Assembly: GCF_032884065.1 (NCBI RefSeq) | Contig: NC_088864.1 | Span: 18,294,409 to 18,358,408, forward strand | Source: Artemia franciscana | Taxonomy: Eukaryota > Arthropoda > Branchiopoda > Anostraca > Artemiidae | DNA: 64,000 nt | Direction: 5' to 3' | In this document: positions 22,151 through 57,925 of the stretch, piece after piece | Layout: each line of letters starts with the position of its first letter | How positions within the stretch are numbered: position 1 is the stretch's first letter | Notes under the pieces: model-generated | Told to the model about the DNA's origin: nothing | Databases searched by the model: none | The model's input: only the letters and a program-made list of their open reading frames with translations | Translations under genes and position numbers: made by a program

Positions 22151-22165
22151 ACCTGGCATTCAAGT

Positions 22166-30002: not shown

Positions 30003-31711
30003 TCAAACAGTTTGTGGTAACGAACTGTAGTAAGGAGCAACCCGGCTCAATAGAAACCAAAACTCTAAAAAATGGAATATTGATACCAATAGCTACATCA
30101 AAAGAATCGCATTTTAATGCTGATTTTAAATATATAAGTTTCATCAAGTTTAGTCTTACGCACCAAAAGTTACGAGCCTGAGAAGATTTGTGTGATTTTA
30201 GAAAATAGGGGGAAACACCCCCTAAAAGTCATAGAATCTTAACGAAAATTACACCATCAGATTCAGCGTATCAGAGAACCCTACTGTAAAAGTTTCAAGC
30301 TCCTATCTACAAAAATGTGGAATTTTGTATTTTTGGCCAGAAGGCAGATCACGGATGCGTGTTTATTTGTTTTTTTTGTTTTGTTTTTTTTTCCCAGGGA
30401 TGATCGTATCGACCCAGTTGTCCTAGAATGTTGCGAGAGGGCTCATTCTAACGGAAATGAAAAGTTCTAGTGCCCTTTTTATGTGACCAAAAAAATTGGA
30501 GGGCACCTAGGCCCACTCCCACGCTCAATATTTTCCCAAAGTCAACGGATCAAAATTCTGAGATAGCCATTTTATTCAGCATAGTCGAAAAACCTTAACT
30601 GTGTCTTTGGGGACGACTTACTCCTCCACAGTCCCCGTGGGAGGGGCTACAATTTACAAACTTTGACCAGTGCTTACATATAGTAATGGTTATTGGGAAG
30701 TGTACAGGTGTTTTAAGGAGGATTTTTGGTTGGAGGGAGGGGTTGAAAAGAGGGGGATATACTGGGGGAACTTTCCATCGAGGAATTTGTCATGGGGGAG
30801 TAAAATTTCCATGAAGGGAGCGCAGGATTTACTAGCATTATTTAAAAAAAAAAAAACAATGAAAAAATAAATATGAAAAAGGTTTTTTCAGCTGGAAGTA
30901 AGGAGCAGCATTAAAACTTAAAACGAACAGAAATTATTACCCATATGAGGGGCTCACCTCCTCCTAATACCTCGCTCTTTACGCTAAAGTATTTTTAGTA
31001 ATGTCAACTATTTATTCTACGGCTTTGGTGATTCAGGGGTCATTCTTAATGAATTGGGCCAAAATTTAAGATTTAGTGTAAAGAGAGAGGTACTGACGAG
31101 AAGCGAACCCTATCATATGTGTAATAAAAACATGAGAATAAAAAATTCTTTACGTAAGCTAGTTTATAAGTTACGTATATCTTTTACTAATAAAAGATTC
31201 GTAAAAAATTAAAAGTTCTAGTTGCCTTTTTTATTAACCAAAAAATTGGAGGGCAACTAGGCTTCCTCCCCCGCTCTTTTTTCTCAAAATCATTCGATCA
31301 AAATTATGAGAAAGCCATTTAGCCCCCCCCCAAAAAAGTGAAAATTTCGTTATAATTATTTCTCTGCGGAGAGCCAAAATCAAAACATGTATTGATTCAA
31401 AAACGTTCAGAAATTAAATAAAAAACAGGTTTTTCAACTGAAAGTAAGGAGCTACACTAAAACTTAAAACGAACAGAAATTACTTCGTATATGAAAGGGG
31501 CTGCTTCCTCATCAACGCCGCGCTCTTTACGCTAAAGTTTTTTACTGTTTTAAAAAGAAGAGTTGAGAGAAAGAGTCAAACTCTAGCGTAAAGAGCGGGC
31601 TGCTGATGAGGAAGCAGCCCCTTTCATATACGAAGTAATTTCTGTTCGTTTTAAGTTTTAATGTCGCTCCTTACTTTCAGTTGAAAAAACTTGTTTTTTT
31701 TTTTATTTAAT
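30003..31711 (+). mobile_element. Family U copy, complete
   Basis: It starts TCAAACAGTTTGTGGTAACG + AACTG, a hairpin with 8-bp arms, followed by TAGTAAGGAGCAACCCGGCT. Shared landmarks follow (GGGGGAAACACCCCCT, TTGGAGGGCACCTAGG, GGTTATTGGGAAGTG), then an inner hairpin around ACCTCGCTCTTTACGCTAAA (30,970-31,105), and a 300-bp terminal hairpin (31,412-31,711). There is no ORF, no poly(A) and no clear target duplication. The family is not recognised by me. A non-autonomous DNA element is the best description. Confidence 0.8.
31412..31711. repeat. Terminal hairpin of U element
   Basis: Arms of about 130 bp: ATTAAATAAAAAACAGG...AAGTAAGGAGC...GAACAGAAATTACTTCGTAT and its reverse complement, closing around TTTTTACTGTTTTAAAAAGAAG. 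Confidence 0.85.
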
Positions 31712-31899
31712 GTTACCAAGAACTATACGATGTAACTAAAATATTGTTAAATTGGACTGGAGATTTTGTGAAGTAAGTTTGTTTCTCCTTTTTATAGCTC
31801 AGGGGCATGAATTCACTAATTGACGATGCAAAAAATAAAGCGAATGTCAATTTAATTTAATGTAGAAAAATGACACAAGAACAATTTTCCGGTCCGAAT

Positions 31900-32935
31900 T
31901 AGGGTATGAGGGATTTTAAAACAGAGTAAGGTCCCAGGTTCTGTTAGTATGGTGACGGATTTTATTTTAATATGGTGGTTTTGAATCTACACATAAATTT
32001 ACTGAAGATAATGAATATTATTTCTGAAAACGAGACGTACCTAGCTATTTTAAGAAAGCTTTAATAAGAATTAAGAAAGGTTAAAAGAGTCAGTGTATTA
32101 ATTATAGAGGCATTAGGTTGATTTCTGTATAAAACAAAAACTACTTAGTATGATGTAGATAAAGTTTTAAGAGAAGAACAGCGTGGTCTTAGGAAGGGGA
32201 AAGGATAGCTCGAATAAACTGTCACTCTTAGATTAATAATGATAAGACCTGAGACCCATTAAGTCCTCACTTTCAAGGATTATGAGCAAGTGTTCGATTC
32301 AGTCCATAGAAGAGCTTTAGTGAATGTCATAGACTTGTAAAAAATGCCAGATAAATACATTAAAACGATTAGTGCTATATGTGAGAATGGCATTGCTGCG
32401 GTTAAGGTAGGAAGTGAGGTTAGTAGCTGGTTTTGTATTGAATCAGGAGTCAATCAGGGTTACGTTTCATCCCCACTTAGATGGATCATTTTGATAGACA
32501 CTGTCCCAAGAAGCACAGCAGCGACAACTGGAGAGTTATCACAAATTATCTGACTTGAATGATTAATAATTTCTGTCTATGCCGATTGCTTTGGGTACCC
32601 GACTGACTTACCGTATTTTAAACAGTGGGCTGTACGAAAAGTTTGGTTCAATCCTGCTTTCTAGGGCTCTAATGAAAGAAAGGTTGAGATGGCTAGGGCA
32701 CGTTCTATGGATGAAGGATGATCGATTGCTAGCCGTCTAGGGCTAAATTGGAAACAGGTCGTCCGTGGCTGGTGTAGGAGGATGTCGTAAAGAAATATTT
32801 AAGGGAAATGGAAACTTTTTGGGAGGGTGTATAGAAGGAGGCTTTGAATAGATTGGAATGGAGACGGACCGTGCGTAGTTGTGTTGGCCTAAGGTGGTTC
32901 GGTGCTTCGGTGAGTTGTTAATAGTAGCAGTAGCA
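31900..32935 (+). pseudogene. Decayed LINE fragment (RT and C-terminus)
   Basis: RT blocks are readable in pieces: NYRGIRLISV, LREEQRGLRKG, FKDYEQVFDSVHRRALVNVI, KYIKTISAICENGIAAVKVG and GVNQGYVSSPL. After a gap lacking the YADD box come RLRWLGHVLWMKDDRLLAV and a tryptophan-rich tail. These are features of RTE-type or related LINEs. The catalytic segment is deleted and stops are frequent. Confidence 0.75.
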
Positions 32936-35082
32936 TCTGATTACTGTGACATACGGGCTCACATTTAACAGTTTAGAATGGAATCTAGAATAACAATCCT
33001 TGTTTGTACTATTTGCATCTATCCATGTATCTATTCCTTATTTGTACTTTCATCAGGACCAAGATATATTAGATATAAAGATAAACACTTCTTTATATTT
33101 ATTTTAAATGTTTTGGTTGTGAAAAGTTTACCGAAGTAAATCCAGTGTCGTCAGTTCATAAATTTAGGAGGGGGGTAGTACATAATTTTTTAAATCTATT
33201 AGGGATCCTCTTCAATTTTTCAATGAAAATTCCAGAACAAACATTAGAAATAAAAATATCAGCTAGTCATTTCAAAAATTCTAAGGGGGATCAAATCCCC
33301 TCCCCAAATTGGCACCACTGAGAACATCTTTGTTGAACTTACACTTATTTGTCAGGGAATTTTCACAGTAGGATTACAATAGCACCATTTGAGGGATAGG
33401 AATGCTATTTTGGAAGTCTCTTTTGAAATTGTGATATTGAAATTCCCTGAAATTTGTCATGTAAGCATGTGCTGAATGAAGTTCCTAATCAACTTTTTCC
33501 TCCGAAGACTTCCTAAGAAGAAAATTGAAACTTTCTGCAGAAGTTTCTAATTAAAACAGACGAATCATTATTTACCAGCTAAAGCAGATTCATAATATTT
33601 TTTTCTTAAACGAGCTCAGAACATTTTTAAGTAAATATTCTTTGTTATGAATGTGCTGAATATTTTAGTTTTTACTTTATTCGGTACTCCTATATTTTTT
33701 ATACTTTTTAATTTAAAATTCATGCTACGATCCGTTATAAAGCCATCAGTGCGTTCAAATATACGTGTTAAAATAAAATACACGTCCAGTCGTGTAGTGT
33801 CAATTTCTAATACAGTTTTCACGTCTCTTCAAATCATGGCCATAGTGGAAATAGAGGGGGGATGAGGATATAAAATACCCCTTTTAAATTTTCTGCCTCC
33901 CTCCGGATTTAAGAAAAAAATATTTTTTATGGGAAAGGGATTGTAATTGAAAAATACCTTGTTTCAATTTTTTCAGTTTATTTTTTCAACAAATTAAATT
34001 ATAACAAAACTGAAAGAAATACTTCCAGGGTTTAAAAAGTAAATTATAGTCTTCCCCCTAACTCGTTGTGAGTTGACCCCTCTGTTAGTTGGCTCATTCG
34101 GTGACAGTGCAGTTAGCAAAAAGCAATATACGTTAATAACTCAACACATGGAACAGACTGAAGTCTTACTAGGCAATCAAATTACAAAGAAAAAAAGTTT
34201 TTTTCTCAAAGGAAAGTGAAGGAAAAAATGCTAAAACTAAAATCAATTGCAAATTACCGCACGTTAATAGGGTAATTACCGTGCCCTAAGAAAACAACCC
34301 TTTATGCTCAGATTGAAGCAGAAGTTAAGCTTTAGCACAAAGAGGACGGAAAGGTGGTGGTAGCCACCCAAATATATGGATTAATTTTTGTTCAAATTAA
34401 ATGTTAACGTTGCTCCTTAGTTTTGTTTCAATCACATATATTGTACTTAATTTTTCACTTTTAATACCACTTTCAGGATATTTTAAAATATGAAAAAAGT
34501 TGCAACCTAGCTCAACCCTGACGTATTGTTTTAAAGGTTAAATTTTCTATTAAAAATACAAATTAAAAAAGGTGTATGCTTAGAATTTTCTTTTCAAATA
34601 CCAACAACAATTTACATGGTTGCAATGTGTAAGTTTGAAGGAACATTCAATTGAAAACTACTACTCCTGGGGGATACTCTCCCCCCACCGATACACCATT
34701 GTGAAAATAAATATATCATTGTTATCGTTTATTTTACAATAAAAATATTCATCCGTTAAAGGGGAGCTATCAAACCCTCATCCTTTATATGGTAAGCAGT
34801 TTTCTAATAAACTCTTCTAAAAAAGAAAAATCGATGAGGGGCAAATAAACCCCTAATCTCCCCTACTTAGGGGCAAATCTACCCCCCTAATTAGCCGAAA
34901 AATCTTTGCCGGCTAAGCCGCAACTTTCATAGAATGAACTATTTCAGCGTAATACATATCTAATTCCAACGAATGAAACTTATGAGACTGGGACAGGAGG
35001 TGAAAAGGAATTCTGATTCTGATGAGAGTATCATCTAATACCCACTGATATTTCACAGTCTATCCTAGAAGTTTACGTCTGT

Positions 35083-35130
<48 letters not shown>

Positions 35131-35163
35131 CATGAATAATATGGGGATTTTACTTGAAGTTAA
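32936..35163. other. Unassigned DNA with a diverged U fragment and a poly(T)
   Basis: No gene is supported. Around 34,300-34,430 a diverged half of the U terminal hairpin can be seen (AAGCTTTAGCACAAAGAGGA ... AACGTTGCTCCTTAGTTTTG). A run of 44 T lies at 35,085-35,128. The stretch 33,616-33,865 is open on both strands for about 70 codons without recognisable content. Confidence 0.5.
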
Positions 35164-36490
35164 TCAAACAGTTCGTGGTAACGAACTGTAGTAAGGAGTG
35201 ACCCGGCTCAATAGAAACCAAAACTCTAAAAAAATGGAATTTTGATACCAATAGCTACATCAAAAGAATCGCATTTTAATGCTGATTTTAAATATATAAG
35301 TTTCATCAAGTTTAGTCTTACGCACCAAACGTTACGAGCCTGAGAAAATTTGTGTTATTTTAGAAAATAGGGGGAAACACCCCCTAAAAGTCATAAAATC
35401 TTAACGAAAATTACACCATCAGATTCAGCGTATCAGAGAACCCTACTGTAGAAGTTTCAAGCTCCTATCTATAAAAATGTGGAATTTTGTATTTTTTGCC
35501 AGAAGGCCGATCACGGATGCGTGTTTATTTGTTTGTTTATTTTTTTTTTTTCTTTTTTCTTTTTCCCAGGGGTGATCGTATCGACCCAGTTGTCCTAGAA
35601 TGTCGCAAGAGGGCTCATTCTAACGGAAATGAAAAAAGTTCTAGTGCTCTTTTTAAGTGACCAAAAAAATTGGAGGGCACCTAGGCCCCCTCCCAAGCTA
35701 ATTATTTTCCCAAAGTCAATGGATCAAAATTCTGAGATAGCCATTTTATTCAGCGTAGTCGAAAAACCTTATAGCTATGTCTTTGGGGACGACTTACTCC
35801 TCCACAGTCCCCATGGGAGGGGTTACAAGTTACAAACTTCGACCAGTGCTTGCATATAGTAATGGTTATTGGGAAGTGTTTTCAGGAGGATTTTTTGGTT
35901 GGGGGGAGGGGTTGAAAAGAGGGGGATATACTGGGGGAACTTTCCATCGAGGAATTTGTCATGGGGGAAGAAAATTTCCACGAAGGGAGAGCAGGATTTA
36001 CTAGCATTATTTAAAAAAAACAATGAAAAAGTAAATATGAAAAAGTTTTTTTTTCAGCTGGAAGTAAGGAGCAGCATTAAAACTTAAAACAAACAGAAAT
36101 TATTACCCATATGAGGGGCTCACCTCCTCCCAATACCTCGCTCTTTACGCTAAAGTATTTTTAGTAATGTCACCTATTTATTCTACGGCTTTTGTGATTC
36201 AGGGGTCATTCTTAATGAATTGGGCCAAAATTTAAGATTTAGTGTAAAGAGAGAGGTACTGACGAGGGGGCGAACTTTCTCATATGTGTAATAAAAACAT
36301 GGGAATAAAAAATTCTTTACGTAAGCTAGTTTATAAGCTACGTATATCTTTTACTAATAAAAAGATTCGTAAAAATTAAAAGTTCTAGTTGCCTTTTTTA
36401 TTAACCAAAAAATTGGAGGGCAACTACGCTTCCTCCCCCGCTCTTTTTTCTCAAAATCGTTCGATCAAAATTATGAGAAAGCCATTTAGC

Positions 36491-36531
<41 letters not shown>

Positions 36532-36900
36532 CAAATTTCGTTTAAATTATTTTTCTGCGGAGAGCCAAAATAAAAACATGCATTGATTCAAAAATGTTCA
36601 GAAATTAAATAAAAAACAAGTTTTTTCAACTGAAAGTAAGGAGCGACATTAAAACTTAAAACGAACAGAAATTACTTCGTATATGAAAGGGGCTGCATCC
36701 TCATAAACGCCCCGCTCTTTACGCTAAAGTTCTTTACTGTTTTAAAAAGAAGAGTTGAGAGAAAGAGTCAAACTTTAGCGTAAAGAGCGGGGCGTTTATG
36801 AGGATGCAGCTCCTTTCATATACGAAGTAATTTCTGTTCGTTTTAAGTTTGAATGTCACTCCTTACTTTCAGTTGAAAAAACTTGTTTTTTTATTTAATT
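35164..36900 (+). mobile_element. Family U copy, complete
   Basis: The 5' hairpin CAGTTCGTGGTAACGAACTG is perfect. Landmarks and order are as in 30,003-31,711, with the inner hairpin at about 36,130-36,265 and the terminal hairpin at 36,604-36,900. A 38-A run (36,492-36,529) sits where other copies have CCCCCAAAAAAGTG. The terminal hairpin arms pair almost perfectly through GCTGCATCCTCATAAACGCC. The short open frames inside are not conserved in a coding way. Confidence 0.85.
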
Positions 36901-39393
36901 TAATAAAAAGATATAACAGCACAACCCAATAATAAACCGAGCAAAACATAGTGGTTTTCCCAGTCATAAGACTTTGATCATCCAAGTAAGAAAACGGTCA
37001 ATAAGTATTGATCTTGTTGATCTTTTAATAGATCACAACAAATTTATTCAATTTGCTTCTCAAATAAAGACATTTTCTATTTCAGAAAGAGTCTAACCAG
37101 CTTTTCCACACATATTTCTAAGCAGTAGAGGTTCCCTCGTCATTTATCACAGTAAAAAAAACGAATCACTCCCGAACTGCCTCCATTGTTTCTATGTACA
37201 CGAGAAAGCTTAAAAGACTATCATTTACATAATATTCTGACCCCTAACCCCATAAAAAATATTTTCTTTTGCAATATACTGTTCTTTAGGTAGAAACCTC
37301 CTTAATGGTCTTAGAGAAATCTGGCGTGAAACAAGACGAGTCCTTTCGTCTAACAATTCGATTATTCCGACGGATTTTGCTTTGTATGGGTCTCCAGAGT
37401 AGATTAGTGGCGATCCAGGAGGAAATCTGATTTTGTTTACACAAAACATCTTTGATTACTTGGAAAAGTATAAATGATCATTGTCCGTGTTGATGATAGT
37501 TACAATAAACACGGCGGAAAGAAATTTTTACAAATATAGAAATAAAAGGAAGTGGATAAGCTGAATAAATGAAATTTGAAAAAAGCATAAGTTAAATAAA
37601 TAATCAAGTTAATCAAGAAGTTAAATGAATAACAAACAACAAGTTGGCTACCTTTATGAGAAAGTGGGACTATCACCTTCTTAAACACTCCAAGATTGGA
37701 GCATCATACCTAAATTTTAAAACTTCAAATAAATCGGAGACACAATAATTGTTGGCCCCCATCTTTGGCCGAAAGCCTGATGTCCCCATAAAAAAAAAGT
37801 AGCTTTAAAAATTCACATTGTAGTTTCCTTGAACAGTCATCTTTTCCAAACACTCTGAAAGTTTCAACTCAATTCCTTTAAGCTGTTCTCCATATGTTTA
37901 AAATTTGCTGTAATTTAAACTTGACGGACACACCGTCTTTTGACTTTCTATTATTTCTCCCCTCCAGATTGAAATTCCAGGTCAACTTTGTCCTCCAACC
38001 ATCCCTGAGAGTTTCATTTTCACTCCTGAAGCTGTCCCTGATTCATTGCAGAAATGCTGTTTTGGTAATGTCTACACAATCAGTGTCTCCCGATTTAGGT
38101 CTTACTCCTCCTGCCCTCGAGAAAAGTTGAGGTCTACTTGATACCCCAAAAGCACTGGAAATGGCAACTCATCAACCAAACCATTCCTGAGATGTTGTAG
38201 ATAAAATTTTGAAAACCCGGGCGCACATAACGTCATTTGATTTAACAGGTCTGCCTTATGTGTCAAAAGCGTAACTGTGGGATATTTTGAAAGATATTAG
38301 CCGAATGAAATGTCACAAGGTTTCCAAGTTGATCGGAAAATCAGACTAAACATTCCTACCTTTCTTAATATTACAAAAAAAAGAAAAAAAGTAAATGGTC
38401 AGAAATCTAAATTTGACCAAGGAGTAATTTATTTGATTTATGGCTGTTTCTCCAGGGTTTGTGTGGGCAATATTGACCCTGGAAGCACATATAAAAGGCC
38501 TTTCGACTATTTTGAACGAATTACAATCTCAAAATTGTGGTCCGATACCACTGGGGCTTTGAGGTGCCCCAAGGCAAAAAAACATAGAAAGGCTGGCGGG
38601 CAGCCTCCAATTTTTGGTCTTTAAAGACCAAAAAAGGTCCTGAAAGACTATTAATAATGTCGATGTCCATCAAAAGAGCCTACTCAAAAGTTTTTATTAT
38701 TACCACTTCCCTGAAAAGTGGTCGGAGAGAAAAAGAAAACATATGAGAGGCACGTGGCTTTCTAGTAAGCTGACACTAGAATGTTGCGTTTGAATTTTGG
38801 ATCGGTCATCGTTTGGTATATTTACATTTTAATAACTTTGATAGTAAAATTCACAGTCTATCTACTTCAGCAATATTTAAGACCAAAATAGGTAAAATTC
38901 TTGGGTAATTTCTTGTCGCCCAATTCTCTCGAAAATACATTAATAACAATTTTTCAGCAACACCGCACTAAGGTTCTTATAAACTAAGTATAAAGGATAT
39001 CACGGAAACTTGCATGGAAGTAACCTATTTGGGCAGTATCTCAGAAAGGCGCGCATACTAAATTCTTTCAAAAGACGGATACTAACATGGTCCTTCCCTT
39101 AGTAGGGATAAGCCTGTAGAGGCAAAAACAAATACTCTATGGGATTTAGCTGTAATAGCGTGTTTTAGCTGTGTACTTTATTCTTCTTGAATCAAAATTG
39201 ATTACTATGAATAGTTTTGATGATATTTAATTTAGGATGACTCTCATTAAATCAAGAAAGTACTGTGTCAGTTTGTGCCTTGTCCTTTTCTTTATATGTC
39301 ATTGCGACAGCAGCACTAACAGGTAACTGGTCAATTTTTCACTTTTGGACTATTCGCTTTTGGACTATAATTAATCAGTGATTGGTTTGTCTT
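36901..39393. other. Unassigned DNA, possible repeat at 37.7-38.6 kb
   Basis: There are no transposon landmarks. The region 37,720-38,640 reads like degraded repeat sequence with oligopyrimidine segments (CTTTGGCCGAAAGCC, CCCCAAGGC). The short frames at 37,894-38,130 and 38,310-38,624 show no domain. Confidence 0.45.
37225..37449 (-). CDS. Possible short coding fragment, unknown
   Basis: A 74-codon minus frame reads NKIRFPPGSPLIYSGDPYKA, KSVGIIELLDERTRLVSRQI and SLRPLRRFLPKEQYIAKENI. Its composition is balanced (charged residues, prolines, glycines), unlike the repeat-derived frames around it, and it lies outside any identified element. I recognise no family. The flanks give no convincing GT/AG splice sites. 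It could be a decayed host exon, a fragment of an unidentified transposon, or chance. Confidence 0.2.
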   Translation of the reverse strand: MFCVNKIRFPPGSPLIYSGDPYKAKSVGIIELLDERTRLVSRQISLRPLRRFLPKEQYIAKENIFYGVRGQNIM

Positions 39394-39475: not shown

Positions 39476-39479
39476 AAGA

Positions 39480-41110: not shown

Positions 41111-42842
41111 TCAAACAGTTCGTGGTAACGAACTGTAGTAAGGAGCGACCCGGCTCAATAGTAACCAAAACTCTAAAAAATTGAATTTTGATACCAATAG
41201 CTACGTCAAAAGAATCGCATTTTAATGCTGATTTTAAATATATAAGTTTCATCAAGTTTAGTCTCACCCATCAAAAGTTACGAGCCTGAGAAAATTTGCC
41301 TTATTTCAGAAAATAGGGGGAAACACCCCCTAAAAGTCATAAAATCTTAACGAAAATCACAACATCAGATTCAGCGTATCAGAGAACCCTATATTAGAAG
41401 TTTCAAGCTCTTATCTACAAAATTGTGGAATTTTGTATTTTTTCGCCAGAAGGCAGATCACGGATGCGTGTTTATTTGTTTTTTTTTTTCCAGGGGTGAT
41501 CGTATTGACCCAGTGGTCCTAGAATATTGCTAGAGGGCTCATTCTAATGGAAATGAAAAGTTCTAGTGCCCTTTTTAAGTGACCAAAAAAATGGAGGGGA
41601 CCTAGGCCCCCTCCCACGCTAACTGTTTTCCCAAAGTCTACGGATCAAAATTCTGAGATAGCCATTTTATTCAGCGTAGTCGAAAAACCATAATAACTAT
41701 GTCTTTGGGAATGACGTACTGTGGGGGACTGTGGGGGAGGGGCTGCAAGTTACAAACTTCGACCAGTGTTTACATATAATAATGGTTATTGGGAACTTTA
41801 CAGACATTTTCAGGGGATTTTTTTTTGGTTTTGGGGATGGGGTTGAGGGGAGGGGGCTATGTGGAACGATCTTTCCTTGGAGAGATATGTCATGGGGGAA
41901 CAGAATTTCAATGAAAAGGGCAAAGGATTTTCTAAAATTACTATAAAAAAACGATGAAAAAATAAACATGGAAAAGTTTTTTTCAATTGAAAGTAAGGAG
42001 GAGCATTGAAACTTAAAACGAAGAGAGATTATTACGCATATGAGGGGTTCTAAAAATACTTTACAATAAAGGGTAGGTTTTTAGGAGGAGATAAATACCT
42101 CGCTTGTTATGCTATAGTATTTTTAGTAATTCCGACAATCTATTCTACGGCCTTTCTGATTCAGGGGTCATTCTTAAAGAATTGGGACAAAACTTACGAT
42201 TTAGTGTAAAGAGCGAGGTATTAACGAGGGTAAAAACCCCCTCATATACATAATAAAATTTAAGAATATAAAAGTTTGTTACGTAAGTTAATTCTTAAGT
42301 TACGTATATTTCTTACTAATAAAAACATTCGTTAAAAAATAAAATTTATAGTTGCCTTTTTATGTAACCGAAAAATTGCAGGGCAACTAGGCCTCCTTCC
42401 CCACCCTTTATTTCTCAAAATCGTCTGATCAAAACTAAGAGAAAGTCATTTAGCGAAAAAGGAATTAATATACAAATTTCATTTTAATAATTTATGTGTG
42501 GAGAGCCAAAATCAAATATACATTAATTCAAAAACGTTCAAAAATTACATAAAAAAATTAGTTTTTTTTAACTGAAAGTAAGGAGCGACATTAAAACTTA
42601 AAACGAACAGAAATTACTCCGTATATGAAATGGGTTGTCCCCTCCGCGATCCCTCGCTATTTACGCTAAAGTTTGACTCTTTGCCACAATTCTGCTTTTT
42701 AAAACAATTAAAAGCTTCAGCGAAATGAGCGAGGGATTGTGGGGGGGACTACCCATTTCATATACGGAGTAATTTCTGTTCGTTTTAAGTTTTAATGTCG
42801 CTCCTTACTTTCAGTTAAAAAAATTAGTTTTTTATATGTAAT
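41111..42842 (+). mobile_element. Family U copy, complete
   Basis: It starts TCAAACAGTTCGTGGTAACG at 41,111 and ends with the terminal hairpin (about 42,545-42,842). The hairpin interior here reads GGTTGTCCCCTCCGCGATCC, different from the copies at 31.5 and 36.7 kb, but pairs with GGATTGTGGGGGGGACTACC on the other arm. Landmarks GGGGGAAACACCCCC and GGTTATTGGGAA are present. Non-coding. Confidence 0.85.
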
Positions 42843-42910
42843 TGTGTACATAGACACAACGTCAAAGCTACTGATAATTGTATTTTCTGAAATATTTACG
42901 TTTTCGAGCT

Positions 42911-43848
42911 TCAAACCGTTCGTGGTAACGAACTGTAGTAAGGAGCGACCCGGCTGAATAGTAACCAAAAATCTAAAAAATGGAATTTAGATACCAATAG
43001 CTAATCAAAAGAATCGCATTTTAATGCTGATTTTAAATATATAAGTTTCATCATGTTTAGTCTTACCCATCAAAAGTTACGAGCCTGAGAAAATTTGCCT
43101 TATTTCAGAAAATAGGGGGAAACACCCCTAAAAGTCATAGAATCTTAACGAAAATTACACTATCAGATTCAGTGTATCAGAGAACCCTACTGTAGAAGTT
43201 TCAAGCTCTTATCTACAAAAATGTGGAATTTTCTATTTTTTGCCAGAAGGCGGATCACGGATGCGTGTTTATTTGTTTGTTTGTTGTTTTTTTCCAAGGG
43301 GTGATCGTATCGACCCAGTTGTCCTAGAATGTTCCGAAAGGGCTCAGTCTAATGGAAACGAAAAGTTCTAGTGCCCTTTTTAAGTGACCAAAATTTGGAG
43401 GGCACCTAGGCCCCCTCCCACGCTAATTATTTTCCCAAAGTCAAACGATCAAAATTCTGAGATAGCCATTTTATTCAGCGTAGTCGAAAAACCTTATAAC
43501 TATGTCTTTGGGGACGACTTACTCCCCCACAGTCCCCGTGGGAGGGGCAACAAGTTACAAACTTTGACCAGTGCTTACATATAGCAATGGTTATTCGGAA
43601 GTGTACAGGTGTTTTCAGGAGGATGTTTTTAGTTGGGGGAGGGGTTGAGAAGAGGGGGATATGCGGGGGGAACTTTCCATTGAGAATTTGTCATGGGGTA
43701 AATTTCCATGAAGGGAGTGCAAGATTTTCTAGCATTATTTAAAAAAAACATTGAAAAAATAAATATGAAAAAGTTTTTTCAACTGGAAGTAAGGAGCAGC
43801 ATTAAAACTTAAAACGAACAGAAATTATTACGCATATGAGGGGCATGA
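42911..43848 (+). mobile_element. Family U copy, 3' truncated by a Penelope-like element
   Basis: The 5' end TCAAACCGTTCGTGGTAACG at 42,911 begins only 70 bp after the preceding copy. The copy runs to CATATGAGGGGC (about 43,848) and stops where PLE sequence begins, so the inner and terminal hairpins are missing. Confidence 0.8.
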
Positions 43849-43959
43849 GAAATTTTTTAAAGTTTTAAAAGTATAGGCACATCTATATTTGTATACATTT
43901 CTGTATATATTTGTATACATTTTCTATTTCTGAGGAATTATTAAAAAAACAAAATAGAA

Positions 43960-44704: not shown

Positions 44705-45259
44705 TTGCACAAAAATAATCTGTACGTAGTTTTTACTAATAATTTTAAAATCATTAATTTCTTAAATTCTGGTAAAGATAAGACCCCAGTTACTCGCCAA
44801 AGAGGGGTCTATCAAATACCCTGTGATTGTGGAAATTACTATGTCGGCAGGACCCATCAGAATCTAGAAAGACGGTTACAACAGCATAAAAAAGACATAG
44901 ACAAGGCATTAATTTCAAATAGTTCCAACAACTCCTTTGATTCTGCTTTAGGTTGGCATATATTTAATAGTCCGTCCCACACGATACTTTTTGAAAAATC
45001 TTCACTCCTCAGTAATGATTTTGGGATAAAACAGGTGGTTCGAGAATCAATCGAAATTAATCTCAAAATAAATAATAATATTTTTTTGAACAGGGACTTA
45101 GGGGAATACTCACTAAATTCTTTATACTCAAATTTAATTAAAAACAATCTAACAAAATGTTTTACTAAACCGATTTATAATAGTACTGAACCAGCTACGA
45201 AAAGGCCTTTGAGACAGGCTGCTAAAAAAGCAAGGTTGGCTCTGAGAAATTGCATTTAA
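44705..45259 (+). pseudogene. PLE GIY-YIG-type endonuclease
   Basis: A 184-codon frame. RQRGVYQIPCDCGNYYVGRT (about residues 36-55) is the GIY-YIG core in its PLE form (GVY...YYVG), with CDC between, followed by QNLERRLQQHKKDI with the conserved Arg/His helix. FEKSSLLSNDFGIKQVVRES + IEINLKINNNIFLNRDLGEY lies near the end, and the C-terminus is basic (KKARLALRN). In Penelope elements this domain makes the nick that primes reverse transcription. The frame is open, but the RT upstream is in another frame and broken. Confidence 0.85.
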
Positions 45260-45557: not shown

Positions 45558-46717
45558 GTTCTAGTGCTCTTTTAAGTGACCAAAAAAATGGGAGGGCATG
45601 TAGGCCCCCTCCCACGCACACTTTTACCCAAAGTTACCGAATCATAATTTTGAGATAGCCAATCTGTTCAACTTAGTCGAAAACCTAAGAACTATGTCTT
45701 TTTGAGGACGACTTAATCCCCCACAGTCTCCGGTGGAGGGGCTGCAAGTTACAAACTTTGACCATTGTTTACATATAGCAATGGTTATTATGAAGTGTAA
45801 AGACCTTTTTCAGGGTGACTTTATCACTTTGGGATGGGGGTGGGTCGGAGGGAGGGTGGTATGTGGGAGGATCTTTCCATGGAGGAATTTATCATGAGGG
45901 AAGAGAATTTCCATGAAGGGGGCGCAGGTTTTCTTAGCATTATTTAAAAAAAAAATGAGAAAAAAAATTCACTTGGAAGTAATGAGTAGCATTAAAACTT
46001 AAAACGAACATAAAATATTGCGTATTTAAGAGGGTTTGTATCCTTCACTTTACCTTGCTCTTTACGCTAAAGTATTTTTAGTAATTTCAACAATTTATTC
46101 TATGGCCTTTGTGATTCAGGGTCATTTTTAAAGATTTGGGATAAAATTCAAGATTTAGTGTAAAGAATGAGGTATTTATAAAGGGGCAAACTTCCCGTAT
46201 ATTTATTGCTAACAAAAGCAAAAATAAAAAAAAAAATCTAGTTGCATTTTTAAGTAACCAAAAATTGGAGGGCAACTAGGCCTCCTCTACCCTTTTTTTT
46301 AATCAAACTCCTCCGATCAAAACTATGAGAAAGCCATTGAGCAAAAAAAAATATATATACGCAAATTTCTTTTTAATTGCTCATGTGCGGTGAGCCGAAA
46401 TCTAAACATGTATTAATTCAAAAATGTTCAATTAAAAAACAAGTTTTTTTAACTGCAAGTAAGGAGCGACATTAAAACTTAAAACAAACAGAAATTATTC
46501 CGTATATGAAAGGGGTTGTCCCCTCCGCAACATCTCGCTCTTTACGCTAAAGTTATTTTATTGTTTTAAAAAGTTGTGACAGAGTCAAACTTTAGCGTAA
46601 GCACCTGGGCGTTGTGGAGTGGACAACTCCTTTCATATACGGAATAATTTCTGTTTGTTTTAAGTTTTAATGTCGCTCCTTACTTGCAGTTAAAAAAACT
46701 TGTTTTTTAATTTAATT
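45558..46717 (+). mobile_element. Family U copy, 5' truncated
   Basis: It begins mid-element at GTTCTAGTGCTCTTTTAAGT, right after the PLE end, and runs to a complete terminal hairpin (about 46,432-46,717). Because 43,364-43,848 and 45,558-46,020 cover the same part of the family, this is a separate copy and not the continuation of the one at 42,911. Confidence 0.8.
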
Positions 46718-46769
46718 TCAACTAAATTGACCGAATTACATATATAGATTTTTGAAAAAAAATCTATTT

Positions 46770-48565: not shown

Positions 48566-48679
48566 TAATGTAGCAGAGTCCGAGAAATTATTAGAAAATA
48601 AAACAAATGAAAATTGTGTCTTAAATTATAAAAATTATTAACTAGAAAATTATAGAAGTTTCAGCGATAGGATTATATT

Positions 48680-49420
48680 GCGACGTTTTAATGACCTTGG
48701 TTAAACTTTGTAACAAGTATTCAACGTATTTCCAATTCCATAATTCTTTCTACCAACAAATAAATGGCTTACCCATGGGTGCGCCTCTTTCCGGGTTACT
48801 GGCGAATATTTATGTGGAGCATATTGAAAATTGGGCATTAAATTCATATTTTTTGAATCATTTCTTTTGGGGACGTTTCATGGATGACGTAATTTCACTT
48901 TGGAACTATGGGGAAAATGAACTTAGGTTTTTTTTAGATCACCTTAACACATATGATAGGAATTTACAGTGTACCTTCGAAATTGAAATTGCAAATAAAA
49001 TCTCATTCATAGATGTTCTAATTATTCTTAACTTCGATGAACTCAATTTTACTATTTACGGAAAACCAACACAAAACAATAGATATTTACATTTTGAATA
49101 AAAACAACCCCCCGTTAAAAGAGGTGTTGTAATATCTCTTGTGGACCGTGCCCAGAATATTTGTTCTGATTCCTACATCACAGCTGAACTAGACTTTATC
49201 AGGGACATGCTTTTCGGAAATGGGTATCCTCTTTTATTTATTAATAATAAAATTAACAGTAGAGTGAAAAGACACTCCCATAAAATCAACGATAATTTAC
49301 CATGTGAAAACAACGATAAGCCCCAAAACATAATTTACCTCCCATATATCCCAAAAATCACTGGAAATCTTAAAAAAGTATGCACAAAAAAATCTGTATG
49401 TTGTATTTACCAATAATTTG
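48680..49420 (+). pseudogene. PLE reverse transcriptase, C-terminal half
   Basis: FYQQINGLPMGAPLSGLLAN + IYVEHIENWALNSYF is the RT block 'GLPMGxPLS..ANIY', well kept here. FFWGRFMDDVISLWNYGENE holds the palm motif as FMDD. TIYGKPTQNNRYLHFE and DRAQNICSDSYITAELDFIR with FGNGYPLLFINNK follow. The 136- and 91-codon frames are broken between them. Confidence 0.85.
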
Positions 49421-49479
49421 AAAATCATAAATCTCCTAAATTCTGGTAAAGATTAGACTCCAGTTACTCGCCTAAGAGG

Positions 49480-49935: not shown

Positions 49936-50100
49936 TCGTTTTCTTTCATTTCATTGAATTGCCTCGTTTCATAACAATTTATTTTTCAGTCATGGTTGAA
50001 CTTCGCTGAGGTAAGGATGCTAGGACTGTTTTGAAGAAACTGTTCATTTTAGTTTTATTGATTTTATCCTCTCGTAAGTTGTTTTTTCTTATTTGTATTG

Positions 50101-50136
50101 CTGAGGACGGCCCTTGGACATAGGGCCGAAATATTC
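50101..50136 (+). ncRNA. PLE tail stem-loop, hammerhead-like
   Basis: CTGAGGACGGCCCTTGGACA + TAGGGCCGAAATATTC. The stem GGCCC/GGGCC is perfect here. Confidence 0.4.
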
Positions 50137-50200
50137 ATTCTAATTTGTGTCACACTGTCTTAAAAAATTCCCTATTGTTCCTCTTGTTTTTGGTGTTTAT

Positions 50201-51053: not shown

Positions 51054-52769
51054 AATTAAATAAAAAAAAACAAGTTTTTTTAAATGAAAGTAAGGAGCGA
51101 CATTAAAACTTAAAACGAACAGAAATTACTCCTTATATGAAAGGGGCTTTTCCTCCTCGACACCCCGCTCCTTACGCTAAAGTTTTTTATTGTTTTAAAA
51201 AGTAGAGTTACGAGAAAGAATCAAACTTTAGCGCAAGGAGCGGGGTGTCGAGGAGGAAAAGCCCCTTTCATATAAGGAGTAATTTCTGTTCGTTTTAAGT
51301 TTTAATGTCGCTCCTTACTTTCATTTAAAAAAACTTGTTTTTTTTTATTTAATTTCTGAAAGTTTTTGAATTAATGCATGTTTGATTTTGGCTCTCCGTA
51401 CATAAATTACTAAATTACGCTCTCCGTACATAAATTACTAAAATGAAATTTGCATATTAATTCTTTTTTTGGCTAAATGGCTTTCTCTTAGTTTTGATCA
51501 GACGATTTTGAGAAATAAGGGGTGGGTAAGGAGGTCTAGTTGCCCTCCAATTTTTCGGTTACTCAAAAAGGCAACTAGATCTTTTAATTTTTAACGAACG
51601 TTTTTATTAGTAAAAAAAAAAACGTAACTTAAGAATTAACTTACGTAACAAACGTACATAATTTACGTTACGTTTTATCCCAATTCTTTAAGAATGACCC
51701 CTGAATCAGAAAGGCCGTAGAATAAATAGTTGAAAATATTTAAAAAAATTTTAGCATAAAGAGCGAAGTATTTATCTCCTCCTAAATACCTCGCTCTTTA
51801 TGCTAAAGTATTTTTAGAACCCTTCATATGCGTAATAATCTGTTCGTTTCAAGTTTTAATGCTACTCCTTACTTTCAATTGAAAAAACTTTTTCATGTTT
51901 ATATTTTCACTGTTTTTTTTTTATAGTAATGCTAGAAAGTCCTGCGCCCTTTTCATTGAATTTCTCTTCCCCCATGAAATACTCCTCCAAGGAAAGATCC
52001 TCCCATATAGCCCCCTCCCCTGAACCCCACACCCAAACCTAAGAAATCCCCCTGATAACGTCGGTACACTTCCCAGTAACCATTACTGTATGTAAACATT
52101 GGTCAAAGTTTGTAACTTGCAGCCCCTCCCCCAGGGACTGTGGGGGGTAATTCATCCCCAAAGACATAGTTATTACGGTTTTTGACTATTCGAAACAAAA
52201 TGGCTATCTCAAAATTTTGATCCGTTGACTTTGGGAAAAAAATGAGCGTGGGAGGGGGCCTAGGTGCCCTCCAATTTTTTTGGTCACTTAAAAAGGGCAC
52301 TAGAACTTTTCATTTCCGTTAGAATGAGCCCTCTTGCAACTCTCTAGGACCACTTGGTCGATACGATGACCCCTGGGAAAAAAAAAAAAAACAAAAAAAA
52401 AAAAAATAAACACGCACCCGTGATTTGTCTTCTGGCAAAAAATATGAAATTCCACATTTTTGTAGATTGGACCTTGGAATTTTTTCTATAGGGTTCTCTG
52501 ATAAGCTGAATGCGATGGTGTAATTTTCGTTAAGATCCTATGACTTTTAGGGGGTGTTACCCCCTATTTTCCAAAATAAGGCAAATTTTCTTAGGCTCGT
52601 AACTTTTGATGACAAAGACTAAATTTGATGAAACTTATATATTTAAAATCAGCAGAAAAATCCGATTCTTTTGATATATCTTTTAGTATCGAAATTCCGT
52701 TTTTTAGAGTTTCGTTTACTATTGAGCCGGGTCGCTCCTTACTACAGTTCGTTACCACGAACTGTTTGA
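51054..52769 (-). mobile_element. Family U copy, complete, minus
   Basis: The terminal hairpin is at 51,054-51,355 and the 5' end at 52,769 (minus TCAAACAGTTCGTGGTAACG). The arms carry GGGGCTTTTCCTCCTCGACA / TGTCGAGGAGGAAAAGCCCC, a perfect pair unlike those of the plus copies. The inner hairpin TAAATACCTCGCTCTTTATG is at about 51,740-51,825. It is nearly identical to 56,031-57,731, so the two form a young subfamily. Confidence 0.85.
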
Positions 52770-54103
52770 TATCACTAGTAAAATATCAGAGTGTAATTTC
52801 TGGGTCAGATTGGTGGCCGTAGTTTATTCGACTTGTTTGTACTATCATATCATTACATTTTTTGTTGTTGTGATTTTTCCTTGGTCACTTGACGGTTTTG
52901 ACGTGTTTATTTTGAGTTTTCTGTATTGAGTCTTTAAAGGCTGAGTTACTTGTTTCCCAACTAACTGATTTTTATGGTCTATGTTGGGTTTCTTGAGTTG
53001 AGGCTGACTTGCCTTAGTTGGCTCCATTGAGTTTCCTGTTCCGTTTTGACCGACCTGAATTGCCTGCTTTGGGTTCATTTTTTAACGTTCCATACGGTTA
53101 GTTGCATGGGCGTAGCTCCAACATTTTTATTTGGGGGGGGGGGGGAGGGTGAAAAGTGTCTCTTCCGGAGAGTCAATTGGCATGGGATTTATAATAATTT
53201 TTTTAATCCAAAATTTTGGAGAGCAGATGTCCCGCTCGCCTCCCCTCCCCAAACGAAGCCATTGGTTAGTTCTCTGAAATCAAATATCAATCTTGTTTGA
53301 AGCACTATAAAAATAATCATTGACGCATTAGTCAAAGGAGTGGAAATTGCTATTGGGCATTCCCTTCACATACTTTGTCACTTGAGAAGGGTATTTGACC
53401 TAAGAATATGAGACCAAATAAGGCTTCTCCCAGCTATCTACAATCATCTGCATCATGCAATGAGATGTAGACTAGATTTTGAATTTTTAAGACTCTATTG
53501 ATCTAAAAATTTGCTATATTACAGGTGTACTTTCACGCCCTTAGGTCATAATCTAGGAATAAAGAAAAGTGAAAACTAACTCATAATGTTTTTACTATGC
53601 TTCTTTTAAAGTTTTAGAAGAATAAGTTTTCCTTACTATTTCCTTTTCAGCTCTTTTAATGAATGGCTACATTTTTAATGAAATTTCACTTATGTCTTTA
53701 ATTCTTGGAACATAACCTACATTTTTTTTCTCTATTCCAAAATGAAAGTTTATCCTTCTCTGAAGACAGTTTTATCTTTTCTTTTATAAGATCTTTTAAG
53801 TTTTTTGTTTATCTGAAGAAGAGAATATGGAAAAATGCATAAATTAAAGGACATATATATTAAAGGAAAACGAAAATGAATATGCAAAAATCATACTGAA
53901 CATACAGTTTTATGGATAAGGGAAGTTATCTTTTGAGCCCTATGTTCAAAACAGCCTACAGTAACCAAAATTTTAGAAAAAATATTTCTAAAAAAACTGG
54001 CTAGTACGATAGAATTGCCATTGGCAGCTGATTCAGGAATGGTAATTACTATTTTCCTTAGTCTCAATAATAAAATGTTAGTATGAGTCCAGAGAAGGAC
54101 CTG
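52770..54103. other. Unassigned DNA
   Basis: No gene is supported. A 77-codon minus frame (53,078-52,845; glutamine- and lysine-rich) has no recognisable domain. A run of about 13 G lies near 53,133-53,145 after TTGCATGGGCGTAGCTCC, a context that looks repeat-derived. Confidence 0.45.
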
Positions 54104-54328
54104 GAGAGAAGGAAACGTAAATAACGACGAAGACCACACTCCCTTTCCATCACAAACTGTTCATTCTAGTTTTATTGATTGTAACCTCTTGTAAGTTGTT
54201 TTTTCTTATTTGTATTGCTGAGGACGGCCCTTGGACCTAGGGCCGAAATATTCATTCTAATTTGTTTCTCACTGTCTTAAAAAATTCCCTATTGTTCTTC
54301 CTGTTTTTGGTCTTTGAGAGAAGGAAAC
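54104..54328 (+). mobile_element. Short PLE-derived insertion with 13-bp flanking repeat
   Basis: A 199-bp insert (54,117-54,315) lies between two copies of GAGAGAAGGAAAC (54,104-54,116 and 54,316-54,328). The insert is a PLE 3' region with its ribozyme-like stem (54,218-54,253), preceded by about 45 bp (TAACGACGAAGACCACACTC...) in inverted orientation that normally lies just beyond that region in the PLE at 47,890-47,935. It is non-coding, like a SINE-sized PLE derivative. Confidence 0.75.
54218..54253 (+). ncRNA. PLE tail stem-loop, hammerhead-like
   Basis: CTGAGGACGGCCCTTGGACC + TAGGGCCGAAATATTC. Same core and stem as the PLE copies. Confidence 0.4.
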
Positions 54329-54459
54329 ATGTTAAGAAAACAATTTGTACTTCATAATATGCAGACTAATTGTGGCTAAGACATCTGGCATACAGCCCTG
54401 CTATATTTTAAATATACAACACTTAACAATTTAAACAATAAAACGGGATTCAGGCTCTA

Positions 54460-55787
54460 TTAAACAGTTCGTGGTAACGAACTCTAGTAAGGACCGATCC
54501 GGCTCAATAGTAAACGAAACTCTAAAAAACGGGATTTTGATACTAATAGATACATCAAAAGAATTGGATTTTTATGCTGATTTGAAATATACAAGTTTCA
54601 TCAAATTTAGTCTTCTTATCAAAAGTTAAGAGCCTGAGAAAATTTGCCTTATTTTGAAAAATAGGGAGAACCCCCCCTAAAAGTCATAGAATCTTAACAA
54701 AATCACATCAACGCATTCAGTGTATCAGAGAACCCTACTGAAGAATTTTCAAGCTCCTATGTACAAAAATGTGGAATTTCGTATTTTTTGCCAGAAGACC
54801 GATTACGGGTGCGTGTTTATTAGTTGTTTTTTTTTTTTCCCAGGGGTGATGGTATCGACTCGGTGGTCCTAGAATGTTGTGAGAGGGCTCATTCTAACGG
54901 AAACTAAAAGTTCTTGTGCCATTTTTAAGTGACCAAAAAAATTGGAGGGCAGCTAGACCCCCTCCCACGCTCATTTTTCCACAAAGTCTATGGGTCAAAA
55001 TTATGAGATAGCCATTTTGCTTAGCATAGTCGAAAAACCTAATAACTATGTCTTTCGGGACGACTTACTCCCTCACAGTCCCCGGGGGAGGGGCTACAAG
55101 TTACAAACTTTGACCAGTGTTTACATGTAGTAATGGTTATTCAAAAGTGTACAGACGTTTTCAGGGGAATTTTTCTCTTAGATAGGGAGGGGTTTGAGGG
55201 GTGGGGGCTACGTGGGAGGATCTTTCCATGGAGAATTTCCTTGGAGGGTGCGTAGGATTTTTTTGTATTATATAAAACAAAAAACAATGAAAAGATAAAT
55301 ATGGAAAAGTTTCTTCAACTGAAAGTAAGGATCAGCATTAAAACAAAACGAACGGAAATTATTACGCATATGATGGGTTCATCTCCTCCTAAATACCTGC
55401 TCTTTACACTAAAGTATTTTTAGTAATTTCAACTATTTATTCTACGGCTTTTGTGATTCAGGGGTCATTCTTAAAGAATTGGGAAAAATTTAAGCTTTAG
55501 TGCAAAGAGCAAGGTATTAAAGAGGGGGCAAACCCCCTCATATACGTAATAAAAATATACGAATATAGAAGTTCGTTACGAAAGTTAATTCGGAAGTTAG
55601 GTATATTTCTTATTAATAAAAACGTTCGTAAAAAATTAGAAGTTCTAGTTGCCTTTTTAAGTAGCCAAAAGATTGAAGGGCAACTAAGCCTCCTCCCCCA
55701 TTACTTTTTTCTCAAAATCCCCGATGAAAACTAAGAAAAAATCATTTAGCAAAAAACAAAAATATGCTAATTTTTGCATATTCATTT
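54460..55787 (+). mobile_element. Family U copy, 3' truncated
   Basis: It starts TTAAACAGTTCGTGGTAACG and follows the family order to CATTTAGCAAAAAACAAAAA (about 55,787), losing the terminal hairpin. It is more diverged than the complete copies. Confidence 0.8.
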
Positions 55788-56030
55788 TTGTTGTCATTTA
55801 TATTTTATGTCCTTTAATTTATGCCTTTTTACCTATTCTCTTCTGCAGATAAGCAAAAGCTCTAACAACCGCAAACGATTAGTGAATATTTTATAATTTT
55901 AGGTCTTCCATTTTTCCCTTGTTGCGTGAAATTCTTACACATATACAAATAATATTTGAGTCTTACATTTTTCTGTCGTTCTGTGAAATGTTCGGCATTT
56001 AAAAGGAGAAAAACTGCCGATCCTTATCCA
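55788..56030. other. Unassigned spacer
   Basis: About 240 bp of A/T-rich DNA between two U copies. Nothing recognised. Confidence 0.5.
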
Positions 56031-57731
56031 AATTAAATAAAAAAAACAAGTTTTTTCAACTGAAAGTAAGGAGCGACATTAAAACTTAAAACGAACAGAA
56101 ATTACTCCGTATATGAAAGGGGCTTTTCCTTCTCGACACCCCGCTCCTTACGCTAAGTATTTTATTGTTTTAAAAAGTAGAGTTGCGAGAAAGAATCAAA
56201 CTTTAGCGCAAGGAGCGGGGTGTCGAGGAGGAAAAGCCCCTTTCATATACGGAGTAATTTCTGTTCGTTTTAAGTTTTAATGTCGCTCCTTACTTTCATT
56301 TAAAAAAACTTGTTTTTTTTTATTTAATTTCTGAAAGTTTTTGAATTAATGCATGTCTGATTTTGGCTCTCCGTACATAAATTACTAAAATGAAATTTGC
56401 ATATTAATTCTTTTTTTGGCTAAATGGCTTTCTCTTAGTTTTGATCAGACGATTTTGAGAAATAAGGGGTGGGGAAGGAGGTCTAGTTGCCCTCCAATTT
56501 TTCGGTTACTCAAAAAGGCAACTGGATCTTTTAATTTTTAACGAACGTTTTTATTAGTAAAAAAAAAACGTAACTTAAGAATTAACTTACGTAACAAACG
56601 TACATAACTTACGTAACTTACGTTACGTTTTATCCCAATTCATTAAGAATGACCCCTGAATCAGAAAGGCCGTAGAATAAATAGTTGAAATTATTTAAAA
56701 AATTTTTAGCATAAAGAGCGAAGTATTTATCTCCTCCTAAATACCTCGCTCTTTATGCTAAAGTATTTTTAGAACCCTTCATATGCATAATAATCTCTGT
56801 TCGTTTTAAGTTTTAATGCTTCTCCTTACTTTCAATTGAAAAAACTTTTTCATGTTTATATTTTCATTTTTTTTTTTTTAATAGTAATGCTAGAAAATCC
56901 TGCGCTCTTTTCATTGAATTTCTCTTCCCCCATGAAATATTCCTCCAAGGAAAGATCCTCCCATATAGCCCCCTCCCCTGATCTCCACACCCAAACCTAA
57001 AAAATCCCCCTGATAACGTCGGTACACTTCCCAGTAACCATTACTGTATGTAAACTATGGTCAAAGTTTGTAACTTGCAGCCCCTCCCCCAGGGACTGTG
57101 GGGGGTAAGTCATCCCCAAAGACATAGTTATTATGGTTTTCGACTATTCGGAACAAAATGGCTATCTCAAAATTTTGATCCGTTGAATTTGGGAAAAAAA
57201 TGAGCGTGGGAGGGGGCCTAGGTGCCCTCTAATTTTTTTTGTCACTTAAAATGGGCACTAGAACTTTTCATTTCCGTTAGAATGAGCCCTCTTGCAACAC
57301 TCTAGGACCACTTGGTCGATACGATGACCCCTGGGAAAAAAAACAAAAAAAAACAACAAAAAAACAAATAAACACGCACCCGTGATTTGTCTTCTGGCAA
57401 AAAATACGAAATTCCACATTTTTGTAGCTTGGACCTTGGAATTTTTTCTACTGGGTTCTCTGATACGTTGAATGCGATGGTGTAATTTTCGTTAAGATCC
57501 TATGACTTTTAGGGGGTGTTACCCCCTATTTTCCAAAATAAGGCAAATTTTCTCAGGCTCGTAACTTTTGATGACAAAGACTAAATTTGATGAAATTTAT
57601 ATATTTAAAATCAGCATAAAAATCCGATTCTTTTGATATATCTTTTAGTATCGATATTCCGTTTTTTAGAGTTTCGTTTACTATTGAGCCGGGTCGCTCC
57701 TTACTACAGTTCGTTACCACGAACTGTTTGA
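56031..57731 (-). mobile_element. Family U copy, complete, minus
   Basis: The terminal hairpin is at 56,031-56,330 and the 5' end at 57,731. It shares with 51,054-52,769 the hairpin interior TTTTCCTTCTCGACACC / GGTGTCGAGGAGGAAAA and nearly all other text, including GATAACGTCGGTACACTTCC. Non-coding. Confidence 0.85.
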
Positions 57732-57925
57732 TTAAATTAAAAAAACAAAGTTTTTTAACTGAAAGTAAGGAGCGACATTAAAACTTAAAACGAACAGAAA
57801 TTACTTTGTATATGAAAGGGCTTGTTCCCTCCTCAACCCCCCGCTCTTTATGTTAAAGTTTTTCACTGTTTTAAAAAGTAGATTTGACAGAAAGAGTCAA
57901 CCTTTAGCGCAAAGAGCGGGGCTTA
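57732..57925. mobile_element. Half of a U terminal hairpin
   Basis: AAATTAAAAAAACAAAGTTT and AAGTAAGGAGCGACATTAAA mark one hairpin arm plus the loop and the first part of the second arm (to AAGAGCGGGGC). It abuts the previous copy's 5' end directly. Confidence 0.75.

Follow-up and report, generated by a model that had tools for sequence, protein, structure and literature searches.

Inherited subfamilies and occasional arm-to-arm copying in the long terminal hairpins of a putative Helitron2/Helentron-like element of Artemia franciscana

When the copies of a long hairpin differ from one another in the sequence of their arms but stay complementary within each copy, are the two arms rewritten from each other, or is each pair of arms inherited as it stands? 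This question is raised by a 64,000-nucleotide stretch of the Artemia franciscana genome (C2:18294409-18358408; hereafter the window), in which five hairpins of about 300 bp, each with a loop of about 40 nt, lie near 31.5, 36.7, 42.6, 51.1 and 56.1 kb, all of them where a preceding sequence-only reading had placed them. That reading held that the arms are rewritten from each other at each transposition, by fold-back synthesis or intra-hairpin conversion. Here we describe that the arms copy each other only occasionally, that much of the difference between copies is inherited with the subfamilies of a larger transposable element, and that short-range template switching between the arms is probably the underlying step.

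Read over 98 arm columns, the hairpins match themselves to different degrees. On the forward strand, the 31.5-kb hairpin (31412..31711, a self-inverse match) carries 7 mismatches between its arms, the 36.7-kb hairpin (36603..36901) 3 and the 42.6-kb hairpin (42543..42843) 8; on the reverse strand, the 51.1-kb hairpin (51054..51354) carries a single mismatch, which is the fixed A/G marker discussed below, and the 56.1-kb hairpin (56030..56329) carries 4. A sixth hairpin near 46.4 kb (46434..46719, forward strand), which lay outside the earlier reading, ends a partial element (45558-46717) and has 10 mismatches. The copies thus differ while their arms stay largely complementary within each copy, but the 42.6- and 31.5-kb copies are far from perfect, and the left arm of the 56.1-kb copy, previously given as CCTCCTCGACACC, actually reads CCTTCTCGACACC. 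The 51.1-kb copy has CTCCTTATATG in both arms where the 56.1-kb copy has CTCCGTATATG in both, and the 36.7-kb copy shows two matched changes in both arms that are private to it within our sample. Between the 31.5- and 36.7-kb copies, which belong to the same subfamily, 5 columns differ in the left arm and 9 in the right, against own-arm mismatches of 7 and 3; between the 51.1- and 56.1-kb copies, again of one subfamily, 4 and 1 columns differ, against own-arm mismatches of 1 and 4. Inside one subfamily, the contrast between within-copy and between-copy divergence therefore vanishes for the window copies.

The wider comparison drew on the whole assembly (1.27 Gb in 6,468 contigs), of a species for which 21 chromosome-scale scaffolds and a Helitron share of 8.81% have been reported (PMC11492255). 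A gapped pattern of the hairpin edges matches the five window hairpins and nothing in each of 100 shuffles, and in its strict form it finds 14,968 hairpin matches across the genome. From these roughly 15,000 matches, 206 hairpins were read, comprising the pattern places listed within the initial 2.85 Mb of contig C1, the sequences that best matched the 31.5- and 51.1-kb copies, extra hairpins flanking any of these, the window's own hairpins, and 60 copies of subfamily C picked via an A/G pattern, which are uninformative on the A/G marker. The edge pattern requires intact edges and so favours young copies. Hairpins with fewer than 52 bases of flank were skipped, L001, L010 and L024 were left out as repeats of other loci, and L146 and L147 were left out because their spacing suggests tandem duplicates of L145; these three C copies lie about 9.66 kb apart at C1:22.518-22.538 Mb, perhaps as a tandem segmental duplication. 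Outer poly-A/T columns, which may be misaligned, were dropped, namely the first 21 of 119 in the 204-copy distance and mirrored-change analyses, leaving 98 columns, and the first 16 of 123 in a 113-copy analysis of transitions and private variants, in which 4 of the 20 private matched variants fall in the first 9 kept columns and are doubtful on account of possible misalignment. All arms were read from the assembly, and an assembly error in a palindrome could in principle make the arms of some copies look matched or their loops look turned.

Across the 204 copies, the arms are 5.2% apart within a copy and 11.5% apart between copies, and 196 of the 204 have a within-copy distance smaller than their mean distance to other copies; in 142 copies sampled earlier, the two values were 5.7% and 12.9%, and 139 copies fell below. 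The check that had been suggested for arm rewriting, namely a comparison of within-copy with between-copy divergence, was thus passed, and much of the between-copy contrast is nevertheless inherited subfamily structure. The arms form three clusters, C (91 copies), B (42) and A (35). On a tree of 56 element bodies from which the hairpin was excluded, all 12 A copies form one clade (support 99) and all 32 C copies another (support 100); mapping all arm types onto this tree requires 6 changes, the theoretical least being 4. The A and C variants of the earlier reading are therefore inherited types, which is less clear for B, and since these variants track body clades, those copies alone do not call for repeated rewriting.

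Copying between arms becomes visible once each subfamily is taken by itself. The distance between the arms of a copy, compared with that between randomly re-paired arms, is 2.10 vs 2.46% in C, 2.33 vs 3.75% in B and 3.00 vs 3.67% in A, in each case below the smallest of 300 shuffles. Matched cells number 69 (17 in C, 38 in B and 14 in A), against shuffle means of 0.64, 8.71 and 1.99, a sum of about 11. Among the changes private to their arm (101 left, 102 right), coincidence at the mirrored position occurs 15 times, always with the same base, where 0.73 would be expected and at most 3 are found at any other offset. With each variant counted once in the 168 copies that fall into one of the three clusters with 8 or more members (the remaining 36 of the 204 lie outside), 30 variants are matched (18 of them private) and 216 are confined to a single arm (185 private), and at no site in these 168 copies have the two arms acquired different new bases. 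The arms of these hairpins thus copy each other occasionally, and their homogenisation goes beyond what independent mutation would give; to this extent the earlier proposal stands. For one variant, a type-C T>C change, the whole genome was searched: it stands in both arms in two places, L135 and a place on contig C82 that could be a sibling or second haplotype of L135, while another 11 arms at other places carry it, counted arm by arm. About 695 C copies were counted at the marker, and the number of doubles of this change expected by chance is well under one.

Pure inheritance joined with selection, in which the arms mutate independently and copies that gain the partner change by chance transpose better, would account for types A and C following the body tree. 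Compensatory mutation, a related reading, has been given for the 3' stem of DINE-1, which differs between species yet stays self-complementary (PMC2374699). For the present hairpins we consider such an account very improbable, since the mirrored changes appear as private changes of single sampled copies, both arms never carry different new bases at one position, and a mismatched form of the hairpin stands in 615 places, as described below; it also leaves the inversion of the loop unexplained. Moreover, private single-arm transitions show no excess of those that retain a G-U pair over those that break pairing (43 vs 46 in the 113 copies). A structured RNA under pairing selection was likewise rejected, there being no sign of it in these transitions and no Rfam family that reaches its gathering threshold anywhere in the window. 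As to when copying takes place, copies with private matched changes carry 1.86 private single changes (14 copies) against 1.16 in the others (99 copies; p = 0.06), an age comparison that is not decisive; copying may occur in resident copies or in amplifying lineages.

How often the arms are copied can be judged from mismatches that whole subfamilies share. Type C has a fixed mismatch, TTACGC in the left arm (A) and TTGCGC in the right (G), and in the same exact context the genome holds 615 A/G, 79 G/G and 5 A/A places; 100 of the 615 A/G places were listed, the 30 of the 79 G/G places shown with letters have C-type loops, and of the 5 A/A places one has a C loop and one a loop partly like it. 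In type A, one left-arm-only change is common to 14 of the 35 copies, a set partly chosen as best matches to the 31.5-kb copy; among the 42 copies of type B, one change stands in the left arm alone in 7, in the right arm alone in 1 and in both arms as a matched pair in 4. Mismatched hairpins evidently spread. Rewriting at every transposition is ruled out by this persistence of shared arm mismatches in many dispersed copies. The within-copy distances of 196 of the 204 copies speak for such a rule, as does the reach of the hairpin to the 3' end of the element, where self-priming may be possible; it is nonetheless refuted by the 615 A/G places against 79 G/G and 1 or 2 A/A with a C loop, by the left-arm-only variants of A and B, and by the C loops, 88 of 92 of which point one way, so that flip-flop is not routine. 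We regard it as extremely improbable.

The marker is also lopsided. Single-arm changes in C amount to 97 cells in 91 copies, or about 0.5% per arm site for all changes; at this rate, 1 or 2 A/A places are about what plain mutation gives, and 79 G/G places are far above it. Subfamilies other than C are A/A at this site, and either A/G came first and the G was then copied, or the G/G state is older. A left-arm G occurs together with the TTCTTCC of L019 in only 4 places, so the G/G set is not marked out by the L019 variant. Mismatch repair in the folded stem, whether of a single-stranded hairpin or of a cruciform, would copy arm to arm without any template switching, would explain the mirrored changes and, if biased to G:C, could explain the lopsided marker. 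A long stem is indeed predicted: folded as single-stranded DNA, the 51.1-kb copy forms a stem of 131 pairs interrupted by a single mismatch (-153.9 kcal/mol, z = -33.95). Such repair does not turn the loop, however, and turned loops are seen, and the lopsided marker could also reflect one sublineage or an older state. We therefore hold stem repair to be rather unlikely as the alternative to template switching, and it may act as a partner process.

The loop carries its own record of events. Relative to the body, it points one way in 39 of 42 A copies and the opposite way in 88 of 92 C copies, with 2 reversed and 2 unscored; B is stated only to show both orientations, as the B1 label used in this tally is loose and also includes B2 arms. 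On the body tree, for which the orientations of L019, L033 and the 42.6-kb copy were entered by hand, at least four changes of loop orientation are required, some of them on long, unsure branches. The clearest cases are the A clade as against C and most of B, and L012, which is sister to L013, L021 and L023 (support 98 and 97) and has 53-nt arm interiors identical to those of L021 with the loop in the opposite direction. Within C, L135 is one of the two reversed copies; next to a C-type body flank, its loop and A/G marker are turned together, and it also bears the matched T>C change. Inversion of the spacer with the arms kept is thus found in L012 against its three sister copies and in L135 within C. 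Flip-flop orientation is a mark of rolling-hairpin replication, as in parvoviruses; as a routine mode, this replication is ruled out here by the 88 of 92 C loops in one orientation.

Exchange between copies, by ectopic conversion or crossing-over, could also spread matched variants and flip hairpins, because any arm is homologous to either arm elsewhere. L186 (C2:21675584-21676037) has a type-C hairpin next to an A-type body flank, and this mixture indicates that exchange between copies occurs as well. Exchange would import only variants already matched elsewhere and would create no private mirrored changes; the donor search outside the sample covered one variant, the T>C change found matched in two places. 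As the source of the matched arms, exchange appears to us very unlikely. Next to the 3' end of L186 there is, in addition, a stretch resembling an inverted 5' end of the element.

Taken together, we consider inherited subfamilies with occasional arm copying by template switching the best and probably the correct reading. Each amplifying lineage would pass its hairpin on, giving rise to subfamilies, and each arm would mutate mostly independently; occasionally, short-range template switching between inverted repeats (quasipalindrome correction) would overwrite a stretch of one arm with the sequence of the other, an event in which the loop would sometimes be turned round; amplification of a corrected copy would then make the matched change a subfamily mark. 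In yeast, template switching between the arms of inverted repeats has been described to leave both arm homogenisation and spacer inversion (PMC8604942), and the presence of both here is what suggests the same step. Similarly, a study of template switching as a means of maintaining RNA hairpins regarded a matched stem change accompanied by an inverted loop as the best support one could have, and found this combination to be extremely rare in RNA genes (PMC8794818). That system shares with ours the matched stem changes and the inverted loop as the predicted signature, but no sign of RNA-pairing selection is seen here. The yeast mutations affect short repeats of unique genes, unlike the dispersed hairpin with its approximately 15,000 pattern matches.

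Several points weigh against this reading. The inverted spacers tabulated for yeast measure 2-5 bp (PMC8604942), as against a loop of about 40 nt in the present hairpins, and L135 could have gained its inversion and its matched change separately. Simple template switching does not predict the lopsided marker, with 79 G/G places and 1 or 2 A/A places with a C loop, unless G/G is one sublineage or the older state, and repair of a folded hairpin gives matched arms without switching. Neither B1 nor B2 (five rows each) forms a single clade on the body tree, where they require at least 2 and at least 4 changes, respectively; L186 combines the hairpin of one type with the body of another; and the copying events are deduced from the sequences that they would have left behind. 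A further idea, which we consider unlikely, is that the giant 3' hairpin folds in the single-stranded intermediate of rolling-circle transposition and that host repair then copies arm to arm with a bias towards G:C, as the marker counts might indicate; the arms of each subfamily would in that case be a record of repair inside transposition intermediates.

What element carries these hairpins? Of 127 copies, 114 have a body motif on a single side of the hairpin (it was not found in 12 and stands on both sides in 1), and the sequence on the opposite side is variable, from which it follows that the hairpin forms one terminus of a larger element. When copies were aligned together with their 1.5-kb flanks, a unit of about 1.69 kb emerged, that is, an element of about 1.7 kb. 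The C reference copy starts with TCAAACAGTTCGTGGTAACGAACTGTAGTAAGGAGCGAC and ends, within the hairpin, with ...TTATTTAAT. Aligned rows that reach the 5' end begin with TCAAACA (once TCAGACA), some rows being cut or truncated there, and the 5' TC of a canonical Helitron (Helitron1) is thus present; in place of its 3' CTRR, most aligned rows end in ATTTAAT. By inspection, a 5' hairpin is formed by CAGTTCGT-GGTA-ACGAACTG, which together with the folded 3' hairpin of the 51.1-kb copy places hairpins at both termini. The 13-mer AGTAAGGAGCGAC starts at base 27 of the C reference copy and its inverse ends, by eye, 35 bp before the aligned 3' end, an asymmetric terminal inverted repeat whose 3' copy lies within the distance of about 20-40 bp from the end known from FoHeli. 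No common target-site duplication was seen by eye, without a tally, in the printed flanks of the aligned copies; most aligned rows have a T at each junction, which may belong to the target or to the element.

By these features, the hairpin resembles the 3'-terminal palindrome of a non-autonomous element of putative Helitron2/Helentron type. For Helitron2, terminal hairpins on either side and such an asymmetric inverted repeat have been described (PMC5148889). The likeness to Helitron2/Helentron elements and their non-autonomous derivatives (DINE-1/HINE, and FoHeli of Fusarium) covers the hairpin at each end, the short inverted repeat near both ends, about 35 bp inside the 3' end, the lack of CTRR and, as in FoHeli1 and 2, the TC start. 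These elements insert at T-rich or TT sites and leave no target-site duplication, and the likeness may extend to this, given the T at the junctions and the flanks as seen by eye. It does not extend to stem length, as DINE-1 stems have 7-11 nt (PMC2374699), in contrast to the 3' hairpin described here, which is some 300 bp long, with as many as 131 pairs, and extends to the 3' end. Long inverted arms within a transposon are also a feature of Foldback elements such as Galileo and Tetris. Unlike in those, the long inverted repeat here makes up one terminal hairpin and not the two ends of the element.

The window holds five full-length copies. Two are of arm type A on the forward strand, 30003..31711 (5' TCAAACAG..., 3' ...ATTTAAT; recovered over its full length at 80% by blastn of the C reference element) and 35164..36900 (blastn and end comparison). 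One, 41111..42843, also on the forward strand, is of type B and has its loop inverted relative to the body when compared with type A. The two of type C lie on the reverse strand, at 51054..52769, which is 95% identical to the C reference copy, and at 56031..57731 (blastn and end comparison). None of the five contains an open reading frame (ORF) of at least 100 aa. Blastn also placed the 5' part of a related element at 42911..43859 (forward), a related element without the 3' hairpin end at 54462..55791 (forward) and, with no strand assigned, a partial hairpin at 57731..57921 that adjoins the 5' end of the 56031-57731 element. Directly adjoining the 5' end at 30003, an inverted relative of element bases 21-851 (74%) occupies 29214-30002 on the reverse strand.

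Decayed pieces of a Helitron-type gene, possibly from a relative of the autonomous partner, are spread over 5144-18745 on the reverse strand of the window; an autonomous Helitron2/Helentron partner would be expected to encode a Rep-helicase protein, in Helentrons together with an endonuclease. The pieces comprise two Pif1 2B domains above the Pfam cut-off (5144-5737 and 6829-7194) and two Helitron_like_N fragments below it (18188-18745 and 17237-17527); among these pieces within the window, no autonomous partner with both ends was shown. On the forward strand, 12895-15226 gives weak Exo_endo_phos and reverse-transcriptase matches below the Pfam cut-off, perhaps from a long interspersed nuclear element (LINE), perhaps from the endonuclease part of a Helentron; close to the Exo_endo_phos fragment, on the opposite strand, there is a weak RVT_1 fragment, and the former may itself belong to a LINE. 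Elsewhere in the window, an ORF with a GIY-YIG domain and a reverse-transcriptase fragment lie on the forward strand at 44705-45259 and 48691-49101, a pair that may point to a candidate Penelope-like element. Large direct repeats are found at 18912-20994 and 25043-27112 (97.5%) and at 22162-24247 and 27111-29202 (98%), and positions 1-28000 contain long A-rich/T-rich arrays of AAAAAAACT-like units as well as 27-bp repeats near GACCGGGACACAGGGAATACAAATGAC.

Hairpins of this kind leave a readable record of a DNA-copying error. The template-switch studies considered above concern short repeats in genes or RNA genes, and, within the library searched, a search joining template switching, Helitron, hairpin and inverted repeat turned up only work on methods for finding transposon families. 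The record also carries a warning, in that covariation in transposon hairpins is not proof of a selected RNA or DNA structure. Here, a single long hairpin has about 15,000 dispersed matches in one genome, and its subfamilies come with asymmetric markers of their own, so that direct counts could show how often arms are copied and loops inverted, over what tract lengths and in which direction.

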